From Candidatus Cloacimonadota bacterium (lineage in GTDB: Bacteria; Cloacimonadota; Cloacimonadia; JGIOTU-2): 64,000 nucleotides of DNA. Shown piece by piece: positions 29,926 through 63,193 of the stretch (position 1 is the first letter of the stretch; every line of letters starts with the position of its first letter). The DNA is taken from positions 1-64,000 of the forward strand of contig JAUWMT010000009.1 in NCBI GenBank assembly GCA_030613025.1, in the 5' to 3' direction. A program made the translations under genes and the position numbers. The notes under the pieces were generated by a model. It saw nothing but the letters and a program-made list of their open reading frames with translations, was not told the DNA's origin and did no database searches.

Positions 29926-30597
29926 ATGAGGGAAAAAGACTACTCCCGTCTTATCGCAGTGGGCGATATTCATGGGCAGTTCGATATGCTGAAGGAATTG
30001 ATGAGGAAGATCGATCCTTCGGATAGAGATTTTTTTGTCTTTATCGGAGATTATATCGATAGGGGAAAAAAAAGCCGTGAAGTCGTTGATTATCTGATAA
30101 ATTTCAAAAAGGAATATAAATCCGTTTTTCTTCGGGGAAATCACGAGGATATGCTTTTAGATCTTCTGGGATTGGATGAGGAAGCAATTTACGGCTTGTA
30201 TTATGAGCGCAATGGAGGAAAATTCACTACGCTATCCTATGGGGATGCCGGTTCGACAGTCGCTGATTTGGGACATCTTATGCCACAAGAGCATTTGGAA
30301 TTTATTAAGGACACGAAGATATTTTTTGAAACAGATCATTATTATTTTGCCCATGGCGGAGTGATGCCTGGAGTTCCATTTGATGAGCAGAAACGGGAAG
30401 TGCTTATATGGATACGGCATCAATTTATTAATTATCCAACCGGTTTGGGTAAGATCGTTGTTTTCGGACATAGCCCACAGCGCAGAGTGCTTATTACGGA
30501 TGATAAGATTGGTATAGATACGGGAGCGGGATATTTAAAGAAATTGAGTGCGATCGATCTATTTACAAGAGAAATTTTTCAGGTGAGTTATCGGTAG
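29926..30597 (+). CDS. PPP-family metallophosphoesterase (serine/threonine phosphatase-like)
   Basis: VGDIHGQFDML, FIGDYIDRGKKS, FLRGNHEDML, FAHGGVMPG, VFGHSP signature blocks. Confidence 0.93.
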   Translation: MREKDYSRLIAVGDIHGQFDMLKELMRKIDPSDRDFFVFIGDYIDRGKKSREVVDYLINFKKEYKSVFLRGNHEDMLLDLLGLDEEAIYGLYYERNGGKFTTLSYGDAGSTVADLGHLMPQEHLEFIKDTKIFFETDHYYFAHGGVMPGVPFDEQKREVLIWIRHQFINYPTGLGKIVVFGHSPQRRVLITDDKIGIDTGAGYLKKLSAIDLFTREIFQVSYR

Positions 30598-30710
30598 GGT
30601 CGATTCCCCGAATCGAACGGTTCGATATAATGTCTTTGTTGGGACATGTCTGTGAAAGCGTTGTAGGCAGTCCTATTAGTAGCTACTTTCTCACTTCAAC
30701 AGTAAAATTT

Positions 30711-31439
30711 CTAAAATGGAGTTGTTAAAGAAATTACTAAAAGACCAAGAAATAAGAAAAGTACTAAAAAATCTATTAATGAAAATTTTAGTTTTTTATA
30801 AGTAATGTTTCCATCTGGATTGTAACCACGAGAAAGTAATGTGTCAGAAAATCTAATAGAAGTTTCCAGAGATGAATATACAATTGGCACAAAAATTGAG
30901 ATTAGAAAAGTAGTAATACGTGAAAAGCTTATTGGAAATATCCTTATTGATAATCCTCTACAGCGTTGTGCAATAATTATGTTTTCAATCTTTTTTTTTG
31001 TTATTGGAATCATTCGGTATGCAACCATTAGAACTATTCCGAATTTATGAGGAACTCCTACATTAATTAATGCTTGAGGTATTTCCTTTGGAGTAACAAT
31101 AATACTAAAAAATAAACCTGTTGAAATTACAGACATAATTCGTAAAGCTACTATTAATGATGTCGTAAATCTTTCAGAAAAAGTTCCATGACCAAAAGAT
31201 GTAATAATAATAATTGTTATGCTGCCTGCTATTAATATATAAATTTTAACCATTTTTAGAAATTTAAAACTTTGTTTACTAAGAAAAATCGCAACTAAAA
31301 AAAATATTAAAAAAATAAATAGATATTTAATTGGTGAGATAAGACAAAGAATTGGAGCAACAATTAGAAAAGCTATAAACTTTGTAAAAAAATTAGTAGA
31401 ATCAAAAAAAGTTGATTTATAATCCCTAAGATTATTCAT
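30711..31439 (-). CDS. ECF-type transporter transmembrane protein EcfT
   Basis: Multiple TM segments; two coupling-type motifs IIAQRCRGLSI and DTLLSRGYNPDG typical of CbiQ/EcfT; adjacent to ECF ATPases. Confidence 0.85.
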   Translation of the reverse strand: MNNLRDYKSTFFDSTNFFTKFIAFLIVAPILCLISPIKYLFIFLIFFLVAIFLSKQSFKFLKMVKIYILIAGSITIIIITSFGHGTFSERFTTSLIVALRIMSVISTGLFFSIIVTPKEIPQALINVGVPHKFGIVLMVAYRMIPITKKKIENIIIAQRCRGLSIRIFPISFSRITTFLISIFVPIVYSSLETSIRFSDTLLSRGYNPDGNITYKKLKFSLIDFLVLFLFLGLLVISLTTPF

Positions 31440-33121
31440 TCATTCCTGCTTGTTAAAATATTGGATATTTGATTTACAAAATATTCTTCATCTTCTAAAT
31501 ATTTATTGGAAAGATTCTCAACAAAATCAATAAATTCAGAAGATTCAAGATTGAGATATTTTCTCACTCTCTTGTCTTTAAGTATTTCAAAGGTCTGATC
31601 AACTTTAAAAATTGCCCCATCAACTAGAACAGCAATTCTGTCACACAAGAAAGATGCATATAACAAATCATGAGTAATAATTAAAATTGTTTTTCCTTCC
31701 TCTTTTAATTTTCTTATAATCTTTGCTAATCGATTCTTTGTAAAAAAATCTAAACCAAATTCAGGTTCATCAAATAATAATATATCCTGTTTAATAGCAA
31801 TTATATCAGCAATTGAAAGAAGACGTTTTTCACCACCAGATAACGAATGTGGATGTTTATCTGAATATTTTAGTAGTTGCACCTTTTTCAATGCATTTTC
31901 AGCATATTTTTTGGGTTCGGAATATTTGAAAATTTTGGGACCAAACATCACTTCATTAAGAACTGTATTCTCAAAAATCATATCATTAGGATTTTGAGTA
32001 ATGTAACCTATTACTTTAGCACGATCTTCAACTTTCATTTTATTTATGACATTTCCATTAAAAAGGACTTCACCATTATCAGGTTTTAAAATACCCATAA
32101 GTAATTTAAAAATGGTAGATTTGCCACTACCATTTGGGCCCATAATACCAAATATTTCTTTTTTTTGTATTTTCAGCGATAAATCATTTAAAATCCTTTT
32201 ATCCTTATTATACGAGAAATTTATATTTTCAATTTCTATTATATGATTTCCCTGGTAAGAATTGTTATCATAAAAAGAATTATTTAATAATTTATTTTTT
32301 GAATGTGAAATTAATTTACTTAAATCATGCCATGAAAAAAAGTTATTATTCAATTTTGTGTCTAATTTAGCCTTTCGTATTATTTTATACTGCAAAGGAG
32401 TAGAAATAATCTTATCAATCTTCTCATTCCAGAGAGCATATATGGGAGAGCCATCAAATTCTATCTTTCCATTATTTAGAAGAGTTACTTTATCAGCATA
32501 TTTAGCTATTTCTTCAATAACATGACTGCATATTATAATAGTTTTTCCTTTCTTTTTTAAATTTATAATAATTTTTAGTAAGGAATCTGCAGATTTAAAA
32601 TCAACGAGTGAAAATGGTTCATCTAATAATATTATATCACAACCTGATATTAAAACTGCTGCAAGGGCTACTTTTTGTTGTTCACCATAAGAAAGTTCTT
32701 CTGGGCTGCGATATAAAAATTCCTCTCCCAAAATTTCAACAATTATTTCACGAGATTTATTATAACACTCATCATAAGGTTTTGCTTGATACATCAAACT
32801 GCTTGCTACTTCATCCCATACCGTTAATTGATGAAGTTGACTTGCAGGATCCTGCATTAAAATTCCGATTTTCGAACTTAATTCTCCAACATTTTTGTCA
32901 ATAATGCTTGCTTCATCAATGAGTATTTTACCTGTTAATTCACCTCCATACTCACTGTAAAAACCCCTTATAAGCATTAGTAAAGTTGATTTTCCACTGC
33001 CTGTTGGACCAGTTAATATAGAAATAGATTCTTCAGATATATGTAAATTTATATTTGATAAAATTAATTCTTTAGAATCTGGATACTTGTAATTGATGTT
33101 TTTTATTTCAATTTTTTTCAT
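31436..33121 (-). CDS. Fused double ABC ATPase of an ECF-type transporter (EcfA-EcfA')
   Basis: Two Walker A motifs (GPTGSGKSTLL, GPNGSGKSTIF), signatures LSYGEQQKVALA and LSGGEKRLLSIA, Walker B IILLDEPF and ILLFDEPEFGLD. Confidence 0.93.
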   Translation of the reverse strand: MKKIEIKNINYKYPDSKELILSNINLHISEESISILTGPTGSGKSTLLMLIRGFYSEYGGELTGKILIDEASIIDKNVGELSSKIGILMQDPASQLHQLTVWDEVASSLMYQAKPYDECYNKSREIIVEILGEEFLYRSPEELSYGEQQKVALAAVLISGCDIILLDEPFSLVDFKSADSLLKIIINLKKKGKTIIICSHVIEEIAKYADKVTLLNNGKIEFDGSPIYALWNEKIDKIISTPLQYKIIRKAKLDTKLNNNFFSWHDLSKLISHSKNKLLNNSFYDNNSYQGNHIIEIENINFSYNKDKRILNDLSLKIQKKEIFGIMGPNGSGKSTIFKLLMGILKPDNGEVLFNGNVINKMKVEDRAKVIGYITQNPNDMIFENTVLNEVMFGPKIFKYSEPKKYAENALKKVQLLKYSDKHPHSLSGGEKRLLSIADIIAIKQDILLFDEPEFGLDFFTKNRLAKIIRKLKEEGKTILIITHDLLYASFLCDRIAVLVDGAIFKVDQTFEILKDKRVRKYLNLESSEFIDFVENLSNKYLEDEEYFVNQISNILTSRNE

Positions 33122-35067
33122 TCATTTTTTAGTTCATCAATAGCCTTTTCCACATTTTGAATAAGAAATTTTAAATTTTTTGTAGTATATCTTTGTTTAA
33201 TTTTTTTAAGATTTGTATTATCAAGTTTATCAAAATCATTAAAAAGTATTTCTCTGTTCCTTGAAAAAATAAAATCTACGCTAACAGCCTTCATCTTATC
33301 TTCAATAATAGTCATGTAACCTATATTTACTTTTATTTTAAATTCATAATCATTAACTTTTAAAAACTTCCATACTCTTGAAAATTCACTAATTTTTTCT
33401 AGGTATTTTAAGAAAATATTTTTTTCTTCAATTCTATCTTCTTCATCTTTTTGATTTTCTATATTTTGATTATATCTATGTAATATATTAATTTCAATAC
33501 TATTTTTATCCCCATCAATATTTATCAGTTCAGGTTCTTTCGAATGTTTATAGTTATCTTCTTGTTCAATACTTGGTCTCCCCCAATCTTGAATATTATC
33601 ACAGAGAATTAATAAAAAAGTTAAAGGTCTTTTCTCAAAGTTACAAAAAGTCTTATGATTCTTTACCCTATTCTCTAGATACTTTTTTTCTCGTATCCCT
33701 AATCTTTTTTGAAACCTTTCTTCAACCTTTTGATCATAAAATTGATTGAAGTCCCGCCAAATATCCCAATCATGTATTGATATGGCGTTGAGTGCTGGTT
33801 TATAGTCAGATATATTTATTTTATTTTGTTTCAATTCAATCATTATAGCAAATGCACTTAAAAAACCATGATTTTTGGTCAATAACATTTTATGTAAAAG
33901 GATTTCTTTCTTTCTATTATTTTTAAAAGAATTCGAAATTAATTCATTTATGTAATCAATATAATCTTTTTCTACTATGATTCTTTCTAGATTCAAACTT
34001 GTTGGTGGAAATTTCATTTTTAGAACTTTTTTAAAATACTTTTCCATTAATGAGTCAAATCTCTGAATACAAAAACCAATATCATGCATTGCTGCCGTTA
34101 CAAACCATAGCTTTTCGATTTTCTTTTTTTTATCAATTTGTGTTAAAGTACCATTATGTTTAAATATATAATGAGTAAATTTATTATAAAATTTATCAAT
34201 AATTATTACACCAAGCAAAAAGACTTGGAATTGATGTATAAAATGACTTCTATATTTTGAAGTTAAAGAATCAAAGCCATAGTCCTTGAATATCATATTT
34301 TCAAAATCACTTATAAAATCAAATAAACTAGAAAAAATTTTAGGATTTCCAAATAACCTATTGGCACATTTTTCAAATGACTTTTTAAATATATCATTTA
34401 TATGGGCATTGCTTTGTGAGTATAATAAAAAGAAATTTTCTTCTTTTTCTAAATTATTATCTATTCTTTCAGTTCTTTGAATGTAGTTCTTATCAATATT
34501 TTCATTAAATTTTAAGAAATCAATCTTTTTTGATCCAAAAATACCATTATATTTTATATGTTCTATTTCTTTAAGCTTTATTAAAATATTATAAGATAAC
34601 ATTTCTTTTTCATATTTCTCTCTAAGTTTAATTAAATTTTTTATCTTATCAATTATATCTTTGACATGATTTAAAAGTTCTTCTTCTTTGGTAGTGTCTC
34701 CTTTTGGGAAAAATTGATCAATTATACTATCATTAAACAATTCAACTGCATTTTTTTCTTCCGGATATTGAGTTATAAGGACATTGATAATTGATGGATA
34801 TGTCATCCGAACATCTTTAAGAAAATTTGATCCTTGTTCTTCTCGTCTTTTTCCCTTAAGATGTTGATCCATAATTATCACATTAAAATAATCTTTCGAT
34901 AGATTATTTTTCAATTTTCCTATAGAGTCAACCGAAATATATCTTATATTTTCAGTAGATTTCCACTCTTCTAGCTTTGACAATAATATTGATAATATTT
35001 CTGGTTTTGCATCCAATCTTAATTCATCATCACAAAGTATAATTCCATATGGATATTTATCATACAT
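33118..35067 (-). CDS. Receiver-domain protein with C-terminal HD-type hydrolase-like domain
   Basis: N-terminal receiver: ILCDDE, VIIMDQHLKG (phospho-acceptor Asp), LITQ, FPKG; C-terminal HD-like residues SHFIHQFQVF, AAMHDIG, KNHGFLSA, ISIHDWD, ILCDNIQDWGRP. Confidence 0.75.
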   Translation of the reverse strand: MYDKYPYGIILCDDELRLDAKPEILSILLSKLEEWKSTENIRYISVDSIGKLKNNLSKDYFNVIIMDQHLKGKRREEQGSNFLKDVRMTYPSIINVLITQYPEEKNAVELFNDSIIDQFFPKGDTTKEEELLNHVKDIIDKIKNLIKLREKYEKEMLSYNILIKLKEIEHIKYNGIFGSKKIDFLKFNENIDKNYIQRTERIDNNLEKEENFFLLYSQSNAHINDIFKKSFEKCANRLFGNPKIFSSLFDFISDFENMIFKDYGFDSLTSKYRSHFIHQFQVFLLGVIIIDKFYNKFTHYIFKHNGTLTQIDKKKKIEKLWFVTAAMHDIGFCIQRFDSLMEKYFKKVLKMKFPPTSLNLERIIVEKDYIDYINELISNSFKNNRKKEILLHKMLLTKNHGFLSAFAIMIELKQNKINISDYKPALNAISIHDWDIWRDFNQFYDQKVEERFQKRLGIREKKYLENRVKNHKTFCNFEKRPLTFLLILCDNIQDWGRPSIEQEDNYKHSKEPELINIDGDKNSIEINILHRYNQNIENQKDEEDRIEEKNIFLKYLEKISEFSRVWKFLKVNDYEFKIKVNIGYMTIIEDKMKAVSVDFIFSRNREILFNDFDKLDNTNLKKIKQRYTTKNLKFLIQNVEKAIDELKNE

Positions 35068-35069
35068 TA

Positions 35070-36485
35070 TTACCCTCCTTTAGGGATTATATCATTAAAC
35101 TCAATTTCAAAGATTGAACCTTCTTTTTTGTTTTTTCTAAAAATAAATTCAATATCGGCTCCATAAACACCAACCTGTAATAATTTAACTTTTACATCTG
35201 GAAGGCCATTTCCTGGGGATCCTTTTGTTGAAAATTTTTTTTCCCAAATTTTATGGACAATATTTTCAGAAATCCCACCCCCATAATCTTCTATAGTTAA
35301 TAACAAGTTTGATCTTTTATTTCTTTCCAATATAAAATCCAAGATTATTATTTTTTTATCTTTTTCTGATGAATAAGATTCATATGCATTCTTAAATAAT
35401 TCATTAAATACATGTTTTATACTATCCTCTGACATTTCAATTAAATCATCATAATATTTCTTTGCTTCTGTAAAATTATTGGTTTCAAATATTACATCCT
35501 TGTATTGATTTTCAAAATTTTCAATACTTTTTGTAATTATACTAAAAAGTGAAATTTTCTTTTTTATTACCGATGTTTCATAAAGTGAATCTTTAATAAA
35601 ATTTATCTCATTAATCTCATTGAGCAAGTTCGATCCTATTCTATCTTCATTAATATCATTTAGTATAATTTTTAAATGTTTATTTATTCTATCTGCTTTA
35701 TTTTTATATTTATAATTAGCTAAATCTAAATAGTCGTCGTAATCTTTAACTGTAGTGAAAAGATTCTTGGCAACAGGATATAAAGATAATTGAGTACAAA
35801 TTTGTTCAATTTTAATTATCTCCTCAATAATTATTTTATTATTTAAAGATCCTATTTCTTTAAAAATAAAACCGATAATCCAAAATTCATTCATTACTTT
35901 CTTGCCAGTGGATTTTTCAATATTTTCTATACCAAATGTATTTAAAAAGCTGAAATAAATAGGAAACCATAAAGTATAATAGCCTAATTTATACTTAGAT
36001 TTTTTTAGTGTCCTGGAACTTTTAATTGTTTTAAGATATGCATGTTCAAATATTTTTTCAAAATAAATCATTTTTTTTAAGATTTTGAACTTTTTCGAAT
36101 TTTCATCAAAATGCCACGCCTTTTTTTCTTCCTCTGAATAGAAAACTAATAGAGGTTTCCTGTTAGTTCTCATAAAATCAAGCTGAGTATTTGATTTGGC
36201 TGTTTGGTCATATTTTAGATTAAATAAATATATTATAGCCTCTTTTTTTAACTTACCTAAATCTTTATAGACATTTTGAGAATTGCATATTAATTCAATT
36301 TTATTAGAATCATAATTATGTTTAAATACAAAACCATACGAACTCCTAAAAATATCAGAACCGATGTTGATTATTTCATCAATTAAATGTTGAAAAATTT
36401 TTTCTGGTTCACTGGCATTATAAATTTCAGAACATATTTCTAATATTAGTTGGTCATACTTCTGTAATTTATCATTTTCTTTCAT
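35070..36485 (-). CDS. Histidine-kinase-like protein (GHKL/HATPase_c domain) with GAF-like N-terminal region
   Basis: N box NELFKNAYESY, G1 IEDYGGGI, F box KIWEKKFSTKG, G2 GSPGNGL; no obvious canonical H-box. Confidence 0.78.
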   Translation of the reverse strand: MKENDKLQKYDQLILEICSEIYNASEPEKIFQHLIDEIINIGSDIFRSSYGFVFKHNYDSNKIELICNSQNVYKDLGKLKKEAIIYLFNLKYDQTAKSNTQLDFMRTNRKPLLVFYSEEEKKAWHFDENSKKFKILKKMIYFEKIFEHAYLKTIKSSRTLKKSKYKLGYYTLWFPIYFSFLNTFGIENIEKSTGKKVMNEFWIIGFIFKEIGSLNNKIIIEEIIKIEQICTQLSLYPVAKNLFTTVKDYDDYLDLANYKYKNKADRINKHLKIILNDINEDRIGSNLLNEINEINFIKDSLYETSVIKKKISLFSIITKSIENFENQYKDVIFETNNFTEAKKYYDDLIEMSEDSIKHVFNELFKNAYESYSSEKDKKIIILDFILERNKRSNLLLTIEDYGGGISENIVHKIWEKKFSTKGSPGNGLPDVKVKLLQVGVYGADIEFIFRKNKKEGSIFEIEFNDIIPKGG

Positions 36486-36488
36486 TAT

Positions 36489-37880
36489 TTAATTCAAAAT
36501 CCGAAAAATATTTTTATAAAACTTCCTATACATGAAAAAATATTCTGGTTTTTTTATAATATTTTTAACTACTCTTATTAAATAGTAAGGGCTTGTATAG
36601 AAGTTTTTTTCAAATTTTCTTCTCATTTTATAATAATCACATTGTGGCAAAGGTGTTTTTAAAACCGTCCTTGTGCAATCATATTGTCTAAAGTCATCGG
36701 TATTGATTAGATTATCTTTTTTACATTGATTGTAAAATGGGGTTCCCGGAAAAGGTGTGATAAAAGCTAAATAGATATAATCTACCTTAAGTTTTTTTAA
36801 TTTCTTTAACCCAGAATTTAACTCTTCAAAAGTTTCCCATGGATAACCGATCATGTAAGTTCCCCATGTAATCATCCCTTCTTCATTCATAATCTTTACT
36901 GCATCTTTAATATCGTTTGTGGTAATTTTTTTTGCTATTTTCTTTAAAGTCTCATCATTCATTGACTCAATACCTACCATTGGACCAGTACATCCAGCTT
37001 CCTTCATCCTTTTTAATAAATTATGTTCAATGTCAGTTATTTTTGAGAAACATGTCCAGGATATTGATATTTTTCTTCTTATAATTTCGTCACAAATTTC
37101 GTAGATTCGATTTTTATCTTTCATAAAATCTTCATCTGCAAAAAAAATATCGTTAATCTTATAATCATTTATAAGATGTTCCATTTCATCAACTACATTT
37201 TTTGCAGAACGTGCAAACCAATCACCTTTCCAGGTTACTACTGATGAACAAAAAGTACAACTATATCTACATCCTCTTGCTGAATGTATAGTTGCTAAAT
37301 TGTTTCTATTATAAGGATACTTAAGCCCATATCCTTTATATTTTTTCATAGGTAAGTTGCTTCGGTCAGGAAAAGGTAAACTATCCAGATTTTTTATCCT
37401 TGGTCTTGATGGGGTAATAATAACCTTATTATTTTTAAGGAAACTTATTCCTTTAATTTTTTCAAAGTCATTATTTTTTTCTTGGAGAAAATTAATAAGT
37501 TCCAGAGTTGTCTTTTCCCCTTCTCCAATCACAGCAAAATCAATAACCTTTTCTTTAACGATTTCTGGTACACCAGATGCGTGTGAACCTCCAAAAATAA
37601 TTGGGATATTTTTATTTTCCTGCTTTATTCTTTCCGCAAGCAATATTCCATCTGGATAATTATATGTCATTGTTGAAAACCCAACGATGTCTGGCTGAAA
37701 TGATTTTACTTCATTCAATACTTGATTATCAGATTTGTCAAACTGGTCTATTACTCGTGTAAAATGACCATTTTTTCTAAGAAAAGCTGATATATAACAA
37801 GCACCAAGTGGTTCTTTCCGGACTCGAGCAACTTGTTGATCTTCTTTACCTGTGGAAGGTGATATTAATAAGACTTTCAT
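36489..37880 (-). CDS. B12-binding-domain radical SAM protein (BchE/cyclase-like class)
   Basis: N-terminal cobalamin-binding-like fold (PDIVGFSTMTYNYPDGILLAERIK...IPIIFGGSHASGVPE); CRYSCTFC (CxxxCxxC) cluster motif; MVGIESMNDETLKKI. Confidence 0.9.
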   Translation of the reverse strand: MKVLLISPSTGKEDQQVARVRKEPLGACYISAFLRKNGHFTRVIDQFDKSDNQVLNEVKSFQPDIVGFSTMTYNYPDGILLAERIKQENKNIPIIFGGSHASGVPEIVKEKVIDFAVIGEGEKTTLELINFLQEKNNDFEKIKGISFLKNNKVIITPSRPRIKNLDSLPFPDRSNLPMKKYKGYGLKYPYNRNNLATIHSARGCRYSCTFCSSVVTWKGDWFARSAKNVVDEMEHLINDYKINDIFFADEDFMKDKNRIYEICDEIIRRKISISWTCFSKITDIEHNLLKRMKEAGCTGPMVGIESMNDETLKKIAKKITTNDIKDAVKIMNEEGMITWGTYMIGYPWETFEELNSGLKKLKKLKVDYIYLAFITPFPGTPFYNQCKKDNLINTDDFRQYDCTRTVLKTPLPQCDYYKMRRKFEKNFYTSPYYLIRVVKNIIKKPEYFFMYRKFYKNIFRILN

Positions 37881-37890
37881 ATTTTGTTAA

Positions 37891-38439
37891 TTAGTGTTGT
37901 ATTCGTTTAATTAAGGCAGTATTTTCAATCTTTTTATATACATAAAGCCCTAACCATCCGCCAAAAATTGCCAAAATAAAAACTACAACACAGCTTAATA
38001 TAACCAGTCTTAATACTGCATTAATACCAGGCATTTTAAATAATACTCCTAAGCTGAAAAATAGTATTGTTATAGTTAGTTGACCAAATGCACCAGTAAA
38101 TAAAGCTGCTAAGGTTATTTTCTTTCTCAATATCCAAAATACAATATCTGCGATAAAACCACCTCCAGTTGCAATTATTATCTTTGGTAAAAAACCTGGT
38201 GTTCCAATAACAGGAAAAGGTAAGGCCATTATACTATAGATCAAGACCATAAAAGTCGCAGCTCCAAATTTTCTCATAATCAAATTACTTAATGTCATAC
38301 ACATAGCACCTAAAATACCCATTAGAAGTGCTGCTCCACCAGTGATACCAGTCAAAATTTGTACTCCACTTCCCAACAAACCAAAAATTAAGTAAATTAC
38401 ACTTAAACTTACCAATACTATCAGTTTAGTAAAATTCAT
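37891..38439 (-). CDS. Integral membrane protein, probable ECF transporter substrate-binding (S) component
   Basis: 182 aa, about five or six hydrophobic segments, first gene of a co-directional operon containing EcfA and EcfT; S-component-like size and topology. Confidence 0.65.
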   Translation of the reverse strand: MNFTKLIVLVSLSVIYLIFGLLGSGVQILTGITGGAALLMGILGAMCMTLSNLIMRKFGAATFMVLIYSIMALPFPVIGTPGFLPKIIIATGGGFIADIVFWILRKKITLAALFTGAFGQLTITILFFSLGVLFKMPGINAVLRLVILSCVVVFILAIFGGWLGLYVYKKIENTALIKRIQH

Positions 38440-38882
38440 TTTACTACCTCCGTTATTAAAACAAAATTATTTTTTTAGTTCTTTTTCTACAAAAATAAAT
38501 TTATTTGTCCACAAAATACGAGTTTTATTTATTTTTAAAAGAACCAAAACTTTTTCTTGAAACTAAAATATGAAATACAATTTACCGAAAATGTGGAAAA
38601 TTATTAACTAAAAATAATAAAAAATAATTTTCATGATTCCAGTTTATTTTTATTTTCACTATCGTATGTATTCCCGAATAAGTTAGACCTTTTCTTTTAT
38701 TAAGATATTATTCATTACTCAACTCCAGTTCATCAAAAGGCTCTTAATTTTATTTAAGGTATTTTTCGTATAAATTTTTATAATCTGTCAATAAGTTTGC
38801 GGAAATAAATGGGTTAAGATATAAAATAAATTAAATGCGGTCATTTGAGGGCTGATGATTATGCATGGGGTTTTGTAGAAAA

Positions 38883-39335
38883 TCAAAAATTATACCTCAA
38901 TGACATTCCTAAACCCTCAAATTCCAGATCTAACTTTTTCTTTTTCTCATTAAAATTAAACAACTTTGCATCTACATATGCATCGAGCACAGCAAGTAGC
39001 TTCACTGTCGCCCACCACCAGAGCATATTCTGCCTCTGTTGATAGTAGTAATTGTACTCATTATAATATGCCTGGCTGTGTGTCTGCTCATACAATGAAT
39101 AAGCGTCATTCATCTCGATATGATATTGAATAGCTGTTCCAAGAAGCAGCGACTCTGCCAGAATATCTATGCCCGCTTTCACATACTGCTTGTTATATAT
39201 CTGCCCACCACCCGGTATTATCGACCAGAGTAATGCCTTTGTGGAGCTGCGTCCGGTATTAAAGGGTTTTTCTTCCGCAAGAAGATTTGTGAAGAGTAGA
39301 ATAATTATGAATGTCGTAAGACAGATTTTTTTCAT
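38883..39335 (-). CDS. DUF5683-like small membrane/periplasmic protein
   Basis: STKALLWSIIPGGGQIYNKQYVKAG motif; signal peptide. Confidence 0.75.
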   Translation of the reverse strand: MKKICLTTFIIILLFTNLLAEEKPFNTGRSSTKALLWSIIPGGGQIYNKQYVKAGIDILAESLLLGTAIQYHIEMNDAYSLYEQTHSQAYYNEYNYYYQQRQNMLWWWATVKLLAVLDAYVDAKLFNFNEKKKKLDLEFEGLGMSLRYNF

Positions 39336-53543: not shown

Positions 53544-56010
53544 CCGTTTTCCCCTTTCCGTTTTCATTCTTCCGAAGAATAGTAATGATAGCAACAGCGA
53601 TCAAACAAAGGAAAGCAAAGATATGCGCTATGAGTGAAACTGTATAATATTTCTTGAAAACTTCAGGAATGAATTCAAACAAAATATCATGTTTGCCGGG
53701 TGAGTCGATATAAATGGAGCGCAGCACGTGATTTGTTTTGTAGATTAGAACTTCTTTGCCATCAACAAAAGCTTTCCAGCCACCCTTGGGCGGATAGTAT
53801 ATTTCTGATGCAACGAATAAGGTTGGTTTATCAGTAAATATTTCATAATTCATTGTATTGAAGGATGGAGTAGTACGAACATAGGATGAATCGGGCTTCT
53901 CAACGGGCAAAAGGAACTCTTCCTCAAGAATTGCAGTTTGAGAAGGATCGAAATCCAGGTCGTTCAATTCATCAAAGCGTTTTTCACGATCTTCAACAGT
54001 AATGACTTCATCGACAAACCATGCGGGCTGAGGATCATACTTCGCTTTGTAAACAAGGAGTTTATTTGATTGATCATAATAATAGGGCTCAAGATGATCT
54101 TGTGGCAGCTCTGAAGAGGAGATAATGTATTTCGTGTTCAGCATTTTAAGAATGTTCCAGTTCACCGGAACTTGCGGGTCGGCGCCTTTGAAAATACAAT
54201 TCTCAACTATGTCCTGATAAATTCTGAGTTTTGCTGCATTATACCCGCCGATCGAATTGTGATAATATGACCAGTCATTGTTGTTAAATGGATTTTCAGT
54301 AATAGGGAATACCCGATAGTAAGAAGTATCTTGCAAAATTGCTTTGTTTGCAGGTTTCAGTTTAAAATGCTGTTTTTCAAGTTTTACAGGATCGTAAAGT
54401 TCGCCCTCTGCTTTTTTCACGTATGGAATAAGGTCGATCAGCAAAATAACAATGACTGCTCCAATAAAAATATATTTTCGGATTACTTTGTGAATGAAAA
54501 GGAGAATAATTGCTGCTGTAAGAAGTGTAAATATTATCATGCGTAAAGCATCGGTCTGCAACATATCAAGCCGAGCTTGTTTTATCATAGAAAGCACTTG
54601 TGGTTCATATTGTGAAGCATCGCCGGCTTTTTCAAGTGGAAAGGATGAACCAAAGATGAGGACTATCAATCCAATGAGAATAAGGGATGCTCCTACACCC
54701 AATATAATATTTTGAACTTTTTTCAGATTTTCTTTTGTGATATCGAGTATGTGTTTGAATCCAAATGCAGCCCAAATAACCATGATGAACTGCATTACAA
54801 CCAGTATCATCGAAGGCACTCGAAATTTATTGAAGAATGGAATATGCTGGAAAAATAGCGAGTACAGGAATGGCAGATGCCTTCCGAAAGACAAGAAAAC
54901 CGACAGAAGAAACAGAGCGAAAAGTACTTTTATAAACCCTTTCTTGAATGAAAGGATCAAACCTACTATTGCAAAGAAAAATAGAACAACACCAAAATAA
55001 TCATATACCTGAGTGAAAGGCATGTGCCCCCAATATCCGGGAATTTGTCTGCCCTTTAGCTGTGAAACTTTGTTCCCATTATAAATCTCTCCGGAAGTTC
55101 CGCCAAAAAAGCGAGGCATAACGAGAGTGAGCAGTTCAGCCGGATGCATTGACCATCCGGTCGCATAATCCATATCCAGTCCGGTTGATTCTTCTTCACC
55201 TGTGCCGCCCCGAATGGAGTGTGGAGTATATTCATTCGTGACAAATAGGGGTTGCGCAACCATTGCAGTAATGAGGAGAGAGCCGCCGATAATAAGTAAA
55301 ATCTTAAAAATAAAACGATTGCTCTCCTTGTCGATCAGCATCTTAATAAGATAATACAGTCCCACAAAAAGCAATATCAAGATCTGGTAGAAAATAATTT
55401 GATAATGCTGGGTTCTGATTTGGATAGAGAATGCAAATATGAATCCAAAGAACCACAGCAGATTTTTTTTATTGAGAAAACTCAAGAAGAAGAAAGTGAC
55501 TATCGGCATATACATGATCGGTCTGAATTTAGCAAAATGCCCGATATTCAGCAGTGACATAAAATGCGGAATAAAAATAAAGCCCAGTCCTCCAAACACT
55601 GATTCCCAGAATCCGAGCTTGAAAAATCGAAGAAGGTAAAATATCCCAATGAAGCCAATGAGGTAGATCCAGATTATGCTGTAAATAATTTTACCCAAAA
55701 ATTTATTAATAATGCTATCAAGCGAGAATACTTTTCCACCAATCCGATGATAGTTTGGCATTCCGGAAAAGACAGGTGAATTCCAATAAACGGTTTTACC
55801 TGTTTCTTTTTGATATTCCAATCGTTGGTGTGTTGAGCCCTTTGAACCGATTACATCAACTCCGCCGGGGCGTAAATCTTGAAATGCCATCGGGTAAAGA
55901 ACGATCAGGAGTATGAAAAAAACAACAGCAAAAGTAATGATGTTGCGCTGATATGGTTTCAGGTTAATTTTTTTTGTATTGCCAGTAATATCTTGATCAA
56001 TTTTTTTCAT
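53533..56010 (-). CDS. YfhO-family membrane protein (glycosyltransferase-like)
   Basis: 825 aa multi-TM; C-terminal ASEIYYPPKGGWKAFVDGKEVLIYKTNHVLRSIYIDSPGKHDILFEFIPE typical of YfhO. Confidence 0.85.
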   Translation of the reverse strand: MKKIDQDITGNTKKINLKPYQRNIITFAVVFFILLIVLYPMAFQDLRPGGVDVIGSKGSTHQRLEYQKETGKTVYWNSPVFSGMPNYHRIGGKVFSLDSIINKFLGKIIYSIIWIYLIGFIGIFYLLRFFKLGFWESVFGGLGFIFIPHFMSLLNIGHFAKFRPIMYMPIVTFFFLSFLNKKNLLWFFGFIFAFSIQIRTQHYQIIFYQILILLFVGLYYLIKMLIDKESNRFIFKILLIIGGSLLITAMVAQPLFVTNEYTPHSIRGGTGEEESTGLDMDYATGWSMHPAELLTLVMPRFFGGTSGEIYNGNKVSQLKGRQIPGYWGHMPFTQVYDYFGVVLFFFAIVGLILSFKKGFIKVLFALFLLSVFLSFGRHLPFLYSLFFQHIPFFNKFRVPSMILVVMQFIMVIWAAFGFKHILDITKENLKKVQNIILGVGASLILIGLIVLIFGSSFPLEKAGDASQYEPQVLSMIKQARLDMLQTDALRMIIFTLLTAAIILLFIHKVIRKYIFIGAVIVILLIDLIPYVKKAEGELYDPVKLEKQHFKLKPANKAILQDTSYYRVFPITENPFNNNDWSYYHNSIGGYNAAKLRIYQDIVENCIFKGADPQVPVNWNILKMLNTKYIISSSELPQDHLEPYYYDQSNKLLVYKAKYDPQPAWFVDEVITVEDREKRFDELNDLDFDPSQTAILEEEFLLPVEKPDSSYVRTTPSFNTMNYEIFTDKPTLFVASEIYYPPKGGWKAFVDGKEVLIYKTNHVLRSIYIDSPGKHDILFEFIPEVFKKYYTVSLIAHIFAFLCLIAVAIITILRKNENGKGKTDAK

Positions 56011-56031
56011 ACAAAACCTCTTAAATTAAAT

Positions 56032-57501
56032 TTATTTCTTTTTCAAGCCTGTCAATTTATGCCATCCTTGCTTTATGCGCTCCAATTCAATAGGTTCATA
56101 AAAATTGAATGGAAAAAGGATAAATGGGAATGAAATTATTATAGCAACTTTTATTAAGATCCTTGGTAAAATATTCAAGTTTGCTGTCAAGGTTGAGAAG
56201 AAGAATAAAATGATAGCTAGAATCAACATTTTTAGAAGTTTCATGTTCTCATAAGGAATTTTGTAAAAACGACTTGCCACAAAATATGTAACGATATACA
56301 AAGCAACGAAAGATATAATTGTAGCGATCGCAGCTCCCATCATCTTATATTTTGGAATAAGAATAAAATTGAGAACAACATTCAGAACTGCTGCACCAAT
56401 CGTAAGATATGCGATATACTTTGTTTTTCTTTTCAAGTATAATCCGAGATTTGCTACAGATTTGGCTCCGCTAAATATATATGCAAGAATAATATAAGGA
56501 ACAACCTGGTAAGCAGCCCAATAATCAGGATTTAGGGCAAGCAGTTCAATGATTTCTTTACTAAAGAATGCCAAACAAAGTCCCGCCCAAAAAAGAATAA
56601 ACAGAAAATAGGTCAGCATTTTACTATAGTATCTTTTATCACCTTTTTGACCATACATTTTATAGGCAATTGGAAGTAATCCTAATGAAAAAGATTGTAT
56701 AAGAAACACATTCAAAACTCCGGCAACTTTGTATCCGAAATTATAAAGTCCGACCTCTTTGTAATCAACTAAAAATTTCAGAATGTATGTGTCGCCCTTA
56801 TTAAGCAACATTCCTGCTAAAGAAGTAAATATCAAAGGAAATCCAAAAGTAAGTGTTGCTTTTAGAATTTTAGAGTCAAATTTTGGGATCATCTCAGAGA
56901 TCATATTTGGAAAGAGAATGATAAACAGCAAACCATCCCCGATTAGATATGAATACAAGATGCCTTTTACACCAATCTTTGCAAATGCGACAAAATAGAT
57001 ATTAAGCCCTAAAATAACTGCTATTTTAATTATATTTGCAGTTGCATAAAATACAGATTTTTCCTTGGCACGCAAGACACTGAGGAAAAGGTTGTTTATA
57101 ACTCGTAAAAAAATTATTATGAAACATAGTTTAAAATAAATTGTAAATTCTAAAGGTTTTGAAAATAAAGCAGAAAGTTTTGATGCACATCCTAGCCCAA
57201 ACAAATTAAATAACAATCCAGTACTAAATAGAAGGACAAATATTGTAAAAAGAGTTGATTTTCTTTTTTCTTTATATTCATGTAAATCGTGAAATCTGAG
57301 AAATGCTGATGACTGCCCCAATATCAATACTTGAGTGAGGATCATTATTGAAATCTCCAGAATTCCAAGTACACCATATTCAGATACTGTTATATGCTTT
57401 GTGTATAATGGTAATAGGACGATGCCGATCAGCTTTGTGGCGATATTACCAATGCTGTAAATAGCAGAGTGTTTGAGAGTGTTTTTAATTTTACTTAACA
57501 T
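56032..57501 (-). CDS. Polysaccharide flippase (Wzx/oligosaccharide flippase family)
   Basis: IYSIGNIATKLIGIVLLPLYTKHITVSEYGVLGIL; 12-14 TM topology. Confidence 0.9.
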   Translation of the reverse strand: MLSKIKNTLKHSAIYSIGNIATKLIGIVLLPLYTKHITVSEYGVLGILEISIMILTQVLILGQSSAFLRFHDLHEYKEKRKSTLFTIFVLLFSTGLLFNLFGLGCASKLSALFSKPLEFTIYFKLCFIIIFLRVINNLFLSVLRAKEKSVFYATANIIKIAVILGLNIYFVAFAKIGVKGILYSYLIGDGLLFIILFPNMISEMIPKFDSKILKATLTFGFPLIFTSLAGMLLNKGDTYILKFLVDYKEVGLYNFGYKVAGVLNVFLIQSFSLGLLPIAYKMYGQKGDKRYYSKMLTYFLFILFWAGLCLAFFSKEIIELLALNPDYWAAYQVVPYIILAYIFSGAKSVANLGLYLKRKTKYIAYLTIGAAVLNVVLNFILIPKYKMMGAAIATIISFVALYIVTYFVASRFYKIPYENMKLLKMLILAIILFFFSTLTANLNILPRILIKVAIIISFPFILFPFNFYEPIELERIKQGWHKLTGLKKK

Positions 57502-58745
57502 CAGTTGCTTTTGAAATAGTCATTCTTTATGAATTCAATACTTTTTTTAGATAACTCTTGTAATTTGGGAATCTCAGTTTCTAATTTTTGTATAATTTTA
57601 TATCTGTTTTTAATAATGTTTTTAATTTTACTCTTAAAAAGGTTGTAGTTTTCTGAATGCATATCAAATGTATATTTGCCTAATGATATTCTATTGAATA
57701 ATTGTTTTGTTTTGAATTCATAAACTATTCCTAAACAAGGTGTAAGATTTAAAAAGTTAAAAATAATTGAATGCATGCGCGTACCTATGAAGAAATCAAA
57801 TTCACGAAATATCTCTATTAACTCCTCTGGTCTGTGAAATTCGCGATTTACAGTGATATTTTTTTTATATTTTTCATAGACCATACCCTTAATTTCCAAT
57901 GCAAGAATAGAATCATCTTTATATTCTTTCTCTCCCTGACAAGTAGAGATGAAGGTAATATAATAATTATATTCCTCTATGAGAAACTCACAGATCTTTT
58001 TTAAATTATTTTTATAGTTGCCGATGGATTTTTTATGCGACTTCTTTATATTAGAAAAATCCCAATCCCGAACAGATATACCAATTTTTTTTGTCTCAAT
58101 TTTTTCCTTTTTATTTATATCACAAAAACCAAAGGCGGCATCAGCTGTTACTTCACAATTACTCGGTATTTTCCCAAGCAATTTTTTTAGATGTTGAATA
58201 GATTCATTGTCGCGCATAATGATAAAGTTAGCCTTTAAAAAAATCGGTTTTAAGAATTTAAATGTAGTTTTTTTCCAAAATGGACCTATTGATTGTGCAT
58301 AAAAATATAATTTTTTTTTAAAACTAATAATATAATTAAATAATGCGAGATTGAATTGCATATAATAAGAATCTGTTAAGTAACCACCACCAGGAGCAAT
58401 AATAATATCTGCTTTTTTTATATTATTTAGTAATTGATTTTCAAAATCCCTCAAAAGAAATTTTGGAAAACATCCAAAAATGTGCTGGTAAAATAAAATA
58501 AAATAATTTCTTGGGATTCTAGTTTTCCCTTTCTTAAAAATTTTATCTTTGATAGAACTTTTAAAATCCATATAATTTACTTCTGGGTAATGTTTGTTTG
58601 CAATTTTTGCTTGATAAGAAGCCACAATTATCTCACAATTATTATTAAATGTTTTCTTAATTGAATTTATGGTGCTAAGTAAAATAGATGCATCCCCTGT
58701 ATTTAATGTGCTACTGAAAGGAATAAATACTTTTACTTTTTTCAT
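57501..58745 (-). CDS. Polysaccharide pyruvyl transferase family protein
   Basis: NTGDASILLSTINSIKK, IIAPGGGYLTD, YAQSIGPFWKK, FFIGTRMHSIIFNFL. Confidence 0.9.
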   Translation of the reverse strand: MKKVKVFIPFSSTLNTGDASILLSTINSIKKTFNNNCEIIVASYQAKIANKHYPEVNYMDFKSSIKDKIFKKGKTRIPRNYFILFYQHIFGCFPKFLLRDFENQLLNNIKKADIIIAPGGGYLTDSYYMQFNLALFNYIISFKKKLYFYAQSIGPFWKKTTFKFLKPIFLKANFIIMRDNESIQHLKKLLGKIPSNCEVTADAAFGFCDINKKEKIETKKIGISVRDWDFSNIKKSHKKSIGNYKNNLKKICEFLIEEYNYYITFISTCQGEKEYKDDSILALEIKGMVYEKYKKNITVNREFHRPEELIEIFREFDFFIGTRMHSIIFNFLNLTPCLGIVYEFKTKQLFNRISLGKYTFDMHSENYNLFKSKIKNIIKNRYKIIQKLETEIPKLQELSKKSIEFIKNDYFKSN

Positions 58746-59794
58746 GAGTAGTATTTTCTTTTTATAATTGAGATGATCTTATTTTCCCGCTGCCCTAAGG
58801 TGAAATTTTTCATAATTCTTTCCCTTGCCTTTTTACCCAAATCTTCATGTGAATTCATTGCTTTTTCAATTAGTTTCACTGCCATATCTACATTTCTCTC
58901 TTTAAGGACAAAACCGCAATCTCCTATCGCTCGTGGAATACCATTAACATTAGAGCCAACCGGTATGCATTCACAAAGCATGGCTTCACAAAGTGTGTTA
59001 GGTAAACCCTCACTTAATGAAAATTGACAAAATACTTTAGCCTTAGAATAAATATTTATTAATTCATTATTTGGAATAAATTTATGTAATTCAACATTAT
59101 CTGCAACATGTTTCTTTGCATAATCATATATATTACCCTTTAGTCCGACAATGATAAACTTCACTTTTGACATTTTTCGAGCAATATCAATTAGAAAATC
59201 AAAACCCTTTCTTCTGTATGTCTGAAGAGATGAAACTCCACCAATTGACAATACAATTCTTTCTTTTTTTATTTTATTCTTTTTATACAATATTTTAGAG
59301 TTATATCCAGTAGGAATCGTAATAATTTTAGTATTTATGCCAGGCACAAAATATTTTATACCAATTTTTAGTCCATCTTTTTTAATATAGTAATTTACAC
59401 TTTCAATCAATGACTCATCTACGGGAATTATTATATTTGCATTTTTATAAGAAAATTTAGCAAAAGAGCTTCTGAATTTTTTGTAGAAAACGCCAAATTC
59501 CAATTCGGGTATTGACACAGCATCATATCCACCAACAATAATAATTGATTTCTTCTTAAAAATTTTACCAAATAAAACTGGCATAAAAGAATGATAATCA
59601 GCAAACCAGATATAAATAAATTTTGCTAACCAAATATTTTTTAATAACCAGACAAACATCTTAATTTGGCTTTGTAAATTTATAGTTAATTTTTTGCTGG
59701 TTTTATAACAGAAATTTTTTATTTCAAAATGTTTTGTAAGTATTTGGTAATCTTTTTTTACGAAACTTGAAAAGCCAGGGTGGATGAATAACAT
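58742..59794 (-). CDS. Glycosyltransferase family 4 (group 1)
   Basis: VLSIGGVSSLQTYRRKGFDFLIDIARKM, KVFCQFSLSEGLPNTLCEAMLCECIPVGSNVNGIPRAIGDCGFVL. Confidence 0.9.
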   Translation of the reverse strand: MLFIHPGFSSFVKKDYQILTKHFEIKNFCYKTSKKLTINLQSQIKMFVWLLKNIWLAKFIYIWFADYHSFMPVLFGKIFKKKSIIIVGGYDAVSIPELEFGVFYKKFRSSFAKFSYKNANIIIPVDESLIESVNYYIKKDGLKIGIKYFVPGINTKIITIPTGYNSKILYKKNKIKKERIVLSIGGVSSLQTYRRKGFDFLIDIARKMSKVKFIIVGLKGNIYDYAKKHVADNVELHKFIPNNELINIYSKAKVFCQFSLSEGLPNTLCEAMLCECIPVGSNVNGIPRAIGDCGFVLKERNVDMAVKLIEKAMNSHEDLGKKARERIMKNFTLGQRENKIISIIKRKYYS

Positions 59795-59985
59795 TATAAA
59801 CGACCAATCCTTTTCAACACTTTGTATTTTGTTTTATACATTTTTATTGCATTTTGTAAGATATCTTGCTTTTTAAACTTACCTGCAAATTCTTTAAATA
59901 CCCTTTCATTTGTTAGTTTATATAACATCTCTAACTGAATAATATGCAATCTCTGATAGCCAATTGTAGCCGGGTCAATTTTCTG
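59794..59985 (-). pseudogene. C-terminal remnant of a D-glucuronyl C5-epimerase-like gene
   Basis: Minus-strand translation KIDPATIGYQRLHIIQLEMLYKLTNERVFKEFAGKFKKQDILQNAIKMYKTKYKVLKRIGRL* aligns to the C-terminus of the ORF at 63194 (EIDPATIGYQRLHITQLEMLYRLTNEEIFKEY...MYRVKYTALKKMRRL). Confidence 0.85.
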
Positions 59986-60027
59986 ATCACTTTTTGTGTC
60001 CTATGCAAAGAATTAAGAAATGAACAA

Positions 60028-60387
60028 TTATTTTGACACAAAATATATTCCACAGATTATTAATAAAGTTCCAATTATTTTATAAATTCCGAGAGGTTCT
60101 TTCAAGAAAAAATATGAAATAAGTATTATCAAAATATAGCCAATACTTAACATTGGATAAGCAACACTTAATTCAACTTTCGATAAAGCAATTATCCAAA
60201 AAATAGCACTAATTCCATAGAAAAATAACCCCAGAAGGATATGTGGTAGTGTAAAAATTTTAAAAAGTGTTATGAAAATATTTTTATTGAATTCTACTAC
60301 CCCAAATTTTGTCATTCCAAACTTCATAGAATACTGCCCAAAAACATTAAACAAAATACTTATTAAAACAAGATATTTTCCGTCCAT
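60028..60387 (-). CDS. Small EamA/DMT-family transporter-like membrane protein
   Basis: 119 aa, four TM segments; IIALSKVELSVAYPMLSIGYILIILISYFFLKEPLGIYKIIGTLLIICGIYFVSK. Confidence 0.82.
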   Translation of the reverse strand: MDGKYLVLISILFNVFGQYSMKFGMTKFGVVEFNKNIFITLFKIFTLPHILLGLFFYGISAIFWIIALSKVELSVAYPMLSIGYILIILISYFFLKEPLGIYKIIGTLLIICGIYFVSK

Positions 60388-60402
60388 ATATTCCTCTATG
60401 GG

Positions 60403-61086
60403 TTATTTTACAAATCGATATTTTATCAAAGTCCAAATAGCTTCTATACCATCATACCATTTTATTTTTTTACCTTCTGTGAAATTTCTTGGATAATAAC
60501 TTATAGGTATTTCTTTTATTTTAATACCCTTTTTGGCAATTTTAGCTGTTACTTCTGGACAAAATTCAAAGCGTTTGCATTTTAAAAAGATAGATTTTAA
60601 TAATGTTGTATCAAACACTTTATAGCACGTTGGTTCATCGGTTAATCTTTGTGAAAACAGGATATTTGTAACAAATGTTACCAATTTACCACCAAGTAAA
60701 TAACGATTATAAGAATGTTTATTTTCAGGATTTAACGCTCTTGATCCGTAAATAACTTTAGCATCCTTATTCTGGATAGGCATCACTAATTTTAAATAGT
60801 CATTAGGGTCATATTCAAGGTCTGCATCTTGAATTATCACAATATCGCCGGTTATATATTTTATCGCTGTTCTAATAGTTGCACCTTTTCCTATATTTTT
60901 TGTATGGTAAATAATCTTAATATTTTGCACATTCTCATATTTTTTTAGGATTTCTCTTGTTCCGTCAGTAGAACCATCGTCAACCATAATTATTTCTTTT
61001 TCTATTGAAACTTTTTGGACTTTTTCAACAATCTTTTCTAATGTATCTTTCTCATTGTAAATTGGCATTATAATAGATAATTTCAT
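60403..61086 (-). CDS. Glycosyltransferase family 2 (DPM1/dolichol-phosphate mannosyltransferase-like)
   Basis: MKLSIIMPIYNEKDTLEKIVEKV, MVDDGSTDGTREIL, VIIQDADLEYDPNDY; start set at MKLSIIMP rather than the upstream Met at 61128. Confidence 0.92.
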   Translation of the reverse strand: MKLSIIMPIYNEKDTLEKIVEKVQKVSIEKEIIMVDDGSTDGTREILKKYENVQNIKIIYHTKNIGKGATIRTAIKYITGDIVIIQDADLEYDPNDYLKLVMPIQNKDAKVIYGSRALNPENKHSYNRYLLGGKLVTFVTNILFSQRLTDEPTCYKVFDTTLLKSIFLKCKRFEFCPEVTAKIAKKGIKIKEIPISYYPRNFTEGKKIKWYDGIEAIWTLIKYRFVK

Positions 61087-61102
61087 AATTTTTTCTTGAA
61101 AT

Positions 61103-62485
61103 TTATTTTGAAAATAAAAATATTTCATACTTATTAAATAAAGAATTTATTACTTTGTTAGTTGAGATATAGAACCACATGATAGGAATGAATGCAAATA
61201 AACCTCTTCTATAAGAAGCTTTCATCATGCTATCCAATGAATCCATTTTTGTATTATCCATCTGATAAAATAAGAAAGTATAAATTCCCCATGATATGAA
61301 AAATAGAATCAATAAAATACTGGTTTTTTCTTTAAAAATATTTTTTATATTTATGATTATTGATACAAAAAAAACATAAAAGGAAATGCCATATAGATTT
61401 GTATTTGTTACTAAATTTTTAACCCAGGTTAGGACGCTATTAAATTTATTGGAATCCCAGAATGGTTTATTTATGAATACATTTTGATCAACATTGATAT
61501 TAAATTTTATATATAAGTTCCAAGCGATAAATGGTAAAAATGCAATTACAGAATAAATTAATAGTTCTTTCCAAGTTCTATTCTTTAAGGCATCGAATAA
61601 TAAAACAATGAAACCTGCAATATTAAACACAACAGCATCACTTCTCGTCCAGATGTTAAATCCCATTAAAAGAGAGGCAATAATTAGATATTTTTGTTTT
61701 CTTCTGTTAAGCCATATATATAAGTAAATGATCGATAAAGAACCATATATGGCTGTTGGTATATTTGTCGTTGAAAGAGAAGAGAAAGCAAACATTTCCG
61801 GTGTTATCACTGTAAAGAAAGTAATAATAATCGAATTAGTTTTATTGGTGAATAATCTTAAACTAGCATAAAAAGAAATTACAAAAAAAATGAAAAAAAG
61901 AGTACTAATAAGTTTAGAAGTAGGTAAATTACATAGATATGCAAAAGCAAAACTTCCAGAAACTAATGGTGGATAAATACATCTTCGTGCTGAACCAAGA
62001 ATAGGGGTATTGTTAATTTCGAATAAACTGTTATTTATTTTGCCTTCGCTTGCAACCACTTTTCCCATTAAATCATAACCGGCTACATTATCATAAGCAA
62101 AAGTTGGCCAATATAAAGATTTAGCTGCACTTCCATAAAGCAATATACAGATTAAGATAAAAAAGAATAACCAAACTAAATTTGTTTTTTTATAATTAAT
62201 TTTCGAAAATTGTGGTTTGAGTTTTTTTAATTTTTTAACTAGAATTTTAAAATTTTTTATATTGTTAATATTTAAGATAATTATAAAAAATATTGAAATT
62301 ACACGCAACATAATAATATTAAATTTTATGTTTAGAATATCAAATATGAACATAAAAATAGTTTCAAATCCAATTCCTATTAGAAAAGCCAAACCTATTT
62401 TTTCTAAGATGGAAAATTTTTTTGATATACAATTAATTACTGATAAACCTAAAAAGAGAACTAAAATAATTCCTAATATGATCAT
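61103..62485 (-). CDS. Multi-TM membrane protein, probable GT-C glycosyltransferase-like
   Basis: 460 aa, about 10 hydrophobic segments, in glycan locus with DPM1-like GT2; family assignment tentative. Confidence 0.65.
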   Translation of the reverse strand: MIILGIILVLFLGLSVINCISKKFSILEKIGLAFLIGIGFETIFMFIFDILNIKFNIIMLRVISIFFIIILNINNIKNFKILVKKLKKLKPQFSKINYKKTNLVWLFFFILICILLYGSAAKSLYWPTFAYDNVAGYDLMGKVVASEGKINNSLFEINNTPILGSARRCIYPPLVSGSFAFAYLCNLPTSKLISTLFFIFFVISFYASLRLFTNKTNSIIITFFTVITPEMFAFSSLSTTNIPTAIYGSLSIIYLYIWLNRRKQKYLIIASLLMGFNIWTRSDAVVFNIAGFIVLLFDALKNRTWKELLIYSVIAFLPFIAWNLYIKFNINVDQNVFINKPFWDSNKFNSVLTWVKNLVTNTNLYGISFYVFFVSIIINIKNIFKEKTSILLILFFISWGIYTFLFYQMDNTKMDSLDSMMKASYRRGLFAFIPIMWFYISTNKVINSLFNKYEIFLFSK

Positions 62486-63057: not shown

Positions 63058-63193
63058 GATTTTCTCTTCTAAATTATTTTTTATATCAATCTAAAATTTT
63101 ATTTAGCTAAGAAGTCCAATACACAGTCAAGAAATTTAATAATTTCTTGAATTACCATATAATTTATCACAATTATCCAAAACGTTATCCTAT

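Follow-up and report, generated by a model that had tools for sequence, protein, structure and literature searches.

The window analysed here (the whole stretch of DNA, 64,000 nucleotides) carries, at a REP/RAYT hot spot, a block of about 8 kb with six genes on the minus strand that was acquired or lost in one piece. We tentatively read this block as an ECF operon with an embedded conflict- or stress-type two-component module, i.e., a radical SAM enzyme, a kinase and a receiver-HD hydrolase. The parts are of known kinds, and no description of their combination was found in open-access papers. Coupling of the module to transport is plausible and, if real, would connect signalling or defence, via a B12-radical SAM enzyme, with uptake transporters of the vitamin type. 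The features on which this account is based are as follows.

37891-38439, minus strand: putative ECF S component (P0006), 182 aa; first gene, preceded by GGAGG
36489-37880, minus strand: B12-binding-domain radical SAM enzyme of the BchE/HpnJ-like class, 463 aa, assigned by PF04055, PF02310 and its motif
35070-36485, minus strand: GHKL ATPase / kinase-like protein (P0004), 471 aa, assigned by PF02518 and motif positions
33118-35067, minus strand: receiver-HD protein (P0003), 649 aa, assigned by motifs, a 17-member alignment and similarity to the HupR receiver
31436-33121, minus strand: fused EcfA-EcfA' ATPase, 561 aa, assigned by TIGR04521, TIGR04520 and Walker A motifs
30711-31439, minus strand: EcfT transmembrane component, 242 aa, assigned by PF02361 and XRG motifs
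30629-38695, no strand: extent of the insertion, present here; same site without the block in congeners G005, G006 and G003
30595-30619, plus strand: REP-like palindrome at the left edge; the same element adjoins a RAYT transposase in G006
38837-38858, plus strand: second REP-type repeat, at the right edge

A six-gene block at an insertion hot spot

The six open reading frames span 30711-38439, and their order, strand and coordinates are those given in the first-pass annotation, as are the three intergenic gaps (10, 3 and 2 nt) and the pair of 4-nt ATGA overlaps that follow (33118-33121 and 31436-31439). The first of these overlaps, between the receiver-HD gene and the EcfA-EcfA' gene, is the junction of the module with the ECF genes. 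The AT-richness that had also been claimed is borne out by the GC content, 0.235-0.32 in the block vs about 0.38-0.42 in the flanks, and by GC3, which is 0.115-0.216 in the six genes, whereas it is 0.39-0.44 outside. An Rfam scan of the block returned no riboswitch and no other RNA, no terminator or biosynthesis gene was found within it, and its promoter-like sites are about as numerous as in shuffled sequence.

The same site was compared in three congeners. In G005 (L027), flanks that are 92-94% identical close to the gene ends run on without the block, and the block is thus more than compositional drift; between these flanks lie the genes of a nucleotidyltransferase and a HEPN-like protein, a toxin-antitoxin-like pair named by reading the sequences. 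The interval of G006 (L029) holds a 165-aa RAYT-type transposase between REP-type repeats, and that of G003 (L031) is an empty site of just a few bases. Together with the REP-type repeats, one copy at each block edge in the window, these three block-free intervals mark an insertion hot spot at which the block was gained or lost as one unit. The horizontal acquisition suggested earlier is therefore supported by the congener sites, the AT-rich composition and the low GC3. The hot spot (window 30597-38883; L027, L029, L031) is bordered by a phosphatase gene on one side and a DUF5683-like gene on the other. A second AT-rich region (window 56000-64000, 25-30% GC) contains flippase, polysaccharide pyruvyl transferase-like and glycosyltransferase genes and is probably a surface-polysaccharide locus.

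Domains and motifs of the six proteins

EcfT matches PF02361 (CbiQ) above the cut-off (E 4e-14) and has two XRG coupling motifs, CRG160 and SRG203. The ATPase contains two ABC_tran domains in Pfam, exceeds the NCBIfam cut-offs of both TIGR04521 (354 bits) and TIGR04520 (337 bits), and carries Walker A motifs at residues 38 and 328 with the signatures LSYGE and LSGGE. Judged by these family scores and motifs, the fused A-A' and T proteins are parts of a genuine ECF transporter, as the first-pass annotation had it; the S assignment is less certain. The S-like protein P0006 matches no Pfam or NCBIfam family, and its assignment draws on its hydrophobic sequence, on the place of its gene in the operon, and on weak similarity (2e-6) to the S protein encoded in an S-AA'-T operon (L065). 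A single-sequence structure model of P0006 is all-helical but poor (pTM 0.36), too poor for structure search.

At the first cut-off used, neither P0003 nor P0006 had a full-length relative in other genomes of the phylum; a later search found remote S relatives with about 30% identity. Their operons are arranged S-x-AA'-T in L064, L066 and L067 and S-AA'-T in L065, with the module absent, and because the S relatives sit in such operons, the three middle genes of the block look embedded in an ordinary ECF operon. In L064, the S relative belongs to the PF09819 (ABC_cobalt) family, and the intervening gene product weakly resembles a molybdopterin-binding protein. The L065 operon (L065:4658-11219) also has two FmdE-type proteins and, by reading, a TonB-type receptor; its gene content suggests a possible role in metal or cofactor uptake. 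Among the sets compared, the window ATPase and EcfT are closest to those of a riboflavin-type operon of Cetobacterium (L118), of which they are clear homologues (2.9e-76 and 1.6e-13, respectively).

The second gene had been called a B12-type radical SAM enzyme, and this holds: the protein matches Radical_SAM (PF04055, 1e-20) and B12-binding (PF02310, 8e-20) and has CxxxCxxC at residues 204-211. Over its full length it resembles BchE, HpnJ and allied B12-radical SAM families, with scores that fall far short of every cut-off; membership of BchE (216.6 bits vs a cut-off of 481.35) and of HpnJ (190 bits vs 577.6) was rejected. Its nearest relatives in the phylum are about 30% identical; ECF and HD genes are missing from six of the seven loci inspected, which are glycan or other loci, and the seventh is a Liv operon (L115) described below. 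A plasmid relative, 31% identical, lies in a PqqD / S8 peptidase / ABC cluster. A scan of viral contigs with P0005 gave no matches, the chosen peptides not being conserved.

P0004 matches HATPase_c (PF02518, 3e-8) and has an N-box at 361, the G1 box DYGGGI at 400, an F-box at 418 and a G2 box at 425. A lone His270 in the DHp interval is the one candidate phospho-His, and a canonical H-box is absent. P0004 is thus predicted to be a kinase-like protein with one candidate phospho-His; the GHKL part of the earlier assignment is supported by the Pfam match and the four boxes. Pairwise comparison detects no similarity between P0004 and the kinase of a kinase-receiver-HD locus discussed below (L040), and close homology of the two was not supported.

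The receiver of P0003 gives a weak Pfam match below cut-off (E 0.026), has the complete set of receiver residues (D13/D14, D67, T99, K122) and resembles the HupR receiver; matches to this region in phylum genomes cover the receiver part only. The HD domain follows at about residues 250-520, and this part of the protein has no match in Pfam or NCBIfam. In a 17-sequence alignment the motifs R-x-H-x2-H (RSHFIH in P0003), HD, HG, H and D-x2-Q-x-W-G-R are invariant, the end motif being written Q[DE]WGR, and so are the H, HD, H, H, D columns that form the metal-binding set of the HD superfamily. With its receiver residues and HD motif set both in place, the receiver-HD protein described by the first-pass annotation is confirmed. 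P0003 has no GYP and no HD-GYP family match above cut-off, and HD-GYP membership was rejected. Foldseek of the HD model listed PDE5/PDE10, a predicted HD hydrolase (2pq7) and GppA, none significant; an identification from these was rejected, the model being at most compatible with an HD phosphohydrolase.

Relatives of the HD domain and parallel transporter loci

The HD family, which has no Pfam or NCBIfam match, is little-described. A scan of 85,462 GTDB species genomes with the pattern [CA]Dx[IL]Q[DE]WGR, i.e., the HD motif alone, found 22 loci with relatives of the HD domain, and one more was found on a viral contig. Profile searches found the family in 5 of 386 genomes of mixed phyla and in 13 of 399 genomes of one large phylum; it is scattered over bacteria, archaea and the one viral contig. 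With P0003 as a plain protein query, public genomes and viral contigs gave no matches, the chosen peptides not being conserved, and a degenerate P0006+P0003 query with hand-made variants served solely to loosen the search patterns. Plasmid searches with P0003, P0004 and P0006 came back empty, as did a phage search with P0003. The N-terminal partners of the HD relatives vary, and the fused receiver was seen only in the window. The viral relative (L032:7248-8900) is a QEWGR-HD protein on a contig with a terminase-like gene. In four other loci (L035, L036, L037, L038), an HD protein with an uncharacterised N-terminal region follows a 170-aa P-loop gene; the MAGs labelled Nitrospirae and Desulfobacterales have almost the same protein, and it differs very little in Thermoprotei and Deltaproteobacteria, which points to either recent transfer or a binning error.

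By Pfam, the neighbours of the HD relatives include ThsB-TIR (L048), TIR with SLATT and a SPASM radical SAM protein (L050), SIR2 (L087), DUF4062 (L082), ParA-like ATPases (L053, L088) and XRE-ImmA with a SPASM radical SAM protein and DUF2284 (L080). In L083 and L084, the HD gene overlaps a TIR-LRR gene of about 630 aa, a pair kept in two genomes of one genus. With these neighbourhoods, the HD family is often found in probable defence operons, which makes it a concrete candidate for a new kind of conflict effector and possibly a more important lead than the block. Kinase (GHKL), receiver and HD genes stand in line in L040, and L079 has an HD relative with a B12-type radical SAM enzyme. A SPASM radical SAM gene directly precedes the QEWGR-HD gene in L080, L055, L042 and L050, XRE-ImmA occurs at L080 (Pfam) and L042 (by reading), and DUF2284 occurs at L080 and L055; going by its gene content, this set resembles a conserved, as yet undescribed conflict system.

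Radical SAM genes are enriched near HD-family genes, with 7 of 142 genes within two places vs 1 of 197 further away (Fisher p 0.011, in a test that treats the relatives, and the window locus too, as independent). In the tree, the four SPASM cases are one clade, and the window, L109 and L079, all with B12-type enzymes, each form a lineage of their own, with long branches in two cases. Because the four SPASM loci form one clade, the independent HD-radical SAM links number about four. Among roughly 40 HD relatives, none has an ECF transporter beside it.

A second insert in the window's own genome (L075/L109, on G000:C89) joins a transport component to the same two enzyme types. This AT-rich insert comprises genes for a Liv-type substrate-binding protein, an HD protein of 755 aa and a B12-radical SAM enzyme of 534 aa, with the HD gene between the other two; its genes have GC3 of 0.16-0.17, whereas the adjoining LivH, LivM and CHASE2 genes have the native composition (0.37-0.41). 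Genes for AbiEi_2 and AbiEii-like proteins also lie within the same Liv operon. In another family of the same class (G116, L115:6692-14518), a Liv operon contains a binding protein, a 246-aa protein of unknown kind, a B12-radical SAM enzyme, LivH, an AbiEi-like protein, a nucleotidyltransferase and LivM; the radical SAM gene lies between the binding-protein gene and LivH, and there is no HD gene. In three congeners (L101, L102, L106), a binding-protein gene of native composition directly follows a B12-radical SAM gene. B12-radical SAM enzymes with transport components are thus recurrent in the lineage, and HD joins them twice in this genome. The syntenic Liv locus of congener G006:C48 (L108:2865-9512) carries AT-rich ThiF-like, YcaO, nitroreductase and binding-protein genes and two unknown genes. 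Its binding protein is 31% identical to that of L075, and the locus appears to be a transporter locus with swapped modifying enzymes.

The gene-neighbourhood check proposed in the first-pass annotation accordingly gave a divided answer. ECF coupling as a recurrent grouping is not supported, in that no HD relative adjoins ECF genes, the nearest phylum relatives of the radical SAM enzyme are not beside them either, and the S relatives sit in plain operons; the second insert and the Liv loci do show transport with a B12-radical SAM enzyme, sometimes with HD. Functional coupling to the ECF transporter is weakened because the grouping was not seen to recur; rare adjacency is what the first-pass annotation itself had said would count against it. 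Within the searchable material, the full set of six genes occurs just once, in the window. The impression that no described system covers the block was upheld in the family libraries and open-access papers searched: PADLOC gave no specific match for the block, and searches of an open-access paper library turned up no description of an ECF transporter with radical SAM, kinase and HD genes.

Readings of the block and comparison with known systems

Our account builds on the gene order, the insertion, the domain assignments, the intact motifs and the family relations, all of which are shown. The frame would be an ordinary ECF uptake transporter (S, A-A', T), with the three-gene module between S and A-A'. 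The soluble GHKL protein P0004 would respond to a cytosolic cue by autophosphorylating at H270 and would pass the phosphate to D67 of the P0003 receiver, and this phosphorylation would switch the HD domain on (or off). The HD domain would be a metal-dependent phosphohydrolase, its substrate probably a nucleotide or another phosphate ester. The radical SAM enzyme may make or modify a small molecule, possibly that of the transporter, as cue or product; we infer a link of this kind between the transported molecule and the signalling. The conflict or stress role is suggested by the neighbours of the HD relatives, and from the same genomic context an anti-phage role may be predicted.

Several observations favour this embedded-module reading: the unit insertion with uniformly low GC3, the intact receiver, GHKL and HD motifs, the TIR, SIR2, SLATT, ParA-like and XRE-ImmA neighbours of a patchy HD family, the L040 line-up, the radical SAM enrichment, and the toxin-antitoxin-like pair at the same site in a sister genome. 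Against it stand HD relatives that lack ECF neighbours, a six-gene set seen once, radical SAM links that are independent only about four times, the absence of pairwise similarity between P0004 and the L040 kinase, and the lack of a PADLOC or significant structure match. We hold this reading at somewhat less than even confidence.

The block could instead, along the lines of the first-pass annotation, serve nutrient or cofactor uptake with its own sensor, the ECF transporter importing a small molecule, the B12-radical SAM enzyme converting it and the GHKL/receiver-HD pair sensing and signalling. The single operon with transporter genes on both sides of the module speaks for such a role, as do the second insert, the radical SAM gene in the Liv operon of L115 and the binding-protein and radical SAM pairs of the congeners. 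However, the block has neither biosynthesis genes nor an Rfam riboswitch, HD relatives elsewhere keep TIR, SIR2, SLATT and XRE-ImmA rather than transporter neighbours, and recurrence with ECF was not found. We regard uptake with its own sensor as rather unlikely. Hitch-hiking, in which a defence-type module with no relation to the ECF operon became linked to it by chance in a donor, and the two moved jointly and are co-transcribed without functional coupling, we also regard as unlikely. Very tight spacing with a 4-nt overlap at the module-ECF junction, a composition that is even across the six genes, and a second insert that repeats transport component, HD and B12-radical SAM all argue against a chance union. 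Yet the related S-AA'-T operons do without the module and the HD relatives without ECF genes, and AbiEi/AbiEii-like genes lie inside the Liv operon of the same genome, which shows that this lineage does take conflict genes into its transporter operons.

A bolder reading posits an undescribed module class, in which an uptake component (an ECF S protein or an ABC binding protein), a B12-radical SAM enzyme and a QEWGR-HD hydrolase would act together, with HD under a kinase/receiver or a fused sensor, and the imported or modified molecule would be the trigger (or antidote) of a conflict or stress response; we consider this generalization doubtful. Very improbable is a peptide natural product, with the B12-radical SAM enzyme modifying a ribosomal peptide that the transporter moves. 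The cluster around the plasmid relative and the YcaO, ThiF-like and nitroreductase genes of the homologous Liv locus in a congener point that way, but the plasmid relative is only 31% identical, the block has no recognisable precursor gene or leader-binding domain, and ECF transporters are small-molecule importers.

Among described systems, Detocs is a defensive two-component system of kinase, receiver and receiver-effector genes, whose best known effector is PNP (PMC11249213). The window resembles it in that a kinase-like gene adjoins a receiver fused to an enzymatic domain; it differs in having no PNP domain, no stand-alone receiver gene and no PADLOC match, and in adding ECF and radical SAM genes. 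Detocs membership was rejected, given the single receiver protein, the missing PNP and, for P0003/P0004, a weak Cas3-HD match at most in PADLOC. The HD-GYP response regulators, i.e., c-di-GMP phosphodiesterases such as RpfG, share the order of receiver then HD-superfamily domain, whereas the window protein has the QEWGR-type motif set and no GYP. With ECF transporters that have a fused A-A' and a dedicated S component (e.g., L118), the window shares S, fused A-A' and T encoded together; however, it has three non-transport genes between S and A-A', and its S protein matches no named S family. BchE/HpnJ-like enzymes have the same domain order, the CxxxCxxC motif and full-length similarity, whereas the window enzyme scores under half of both cut-offs and its gene context differs. 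The L080 set (and partly L042, L050 and L055) likewise places a radical SAM gene next to one whose HD domain is of this family; the radical SAM enzyme there is SPASM-type, whereas the window enzyme is B12-type, and the set has no kinase, receiver or transporter.
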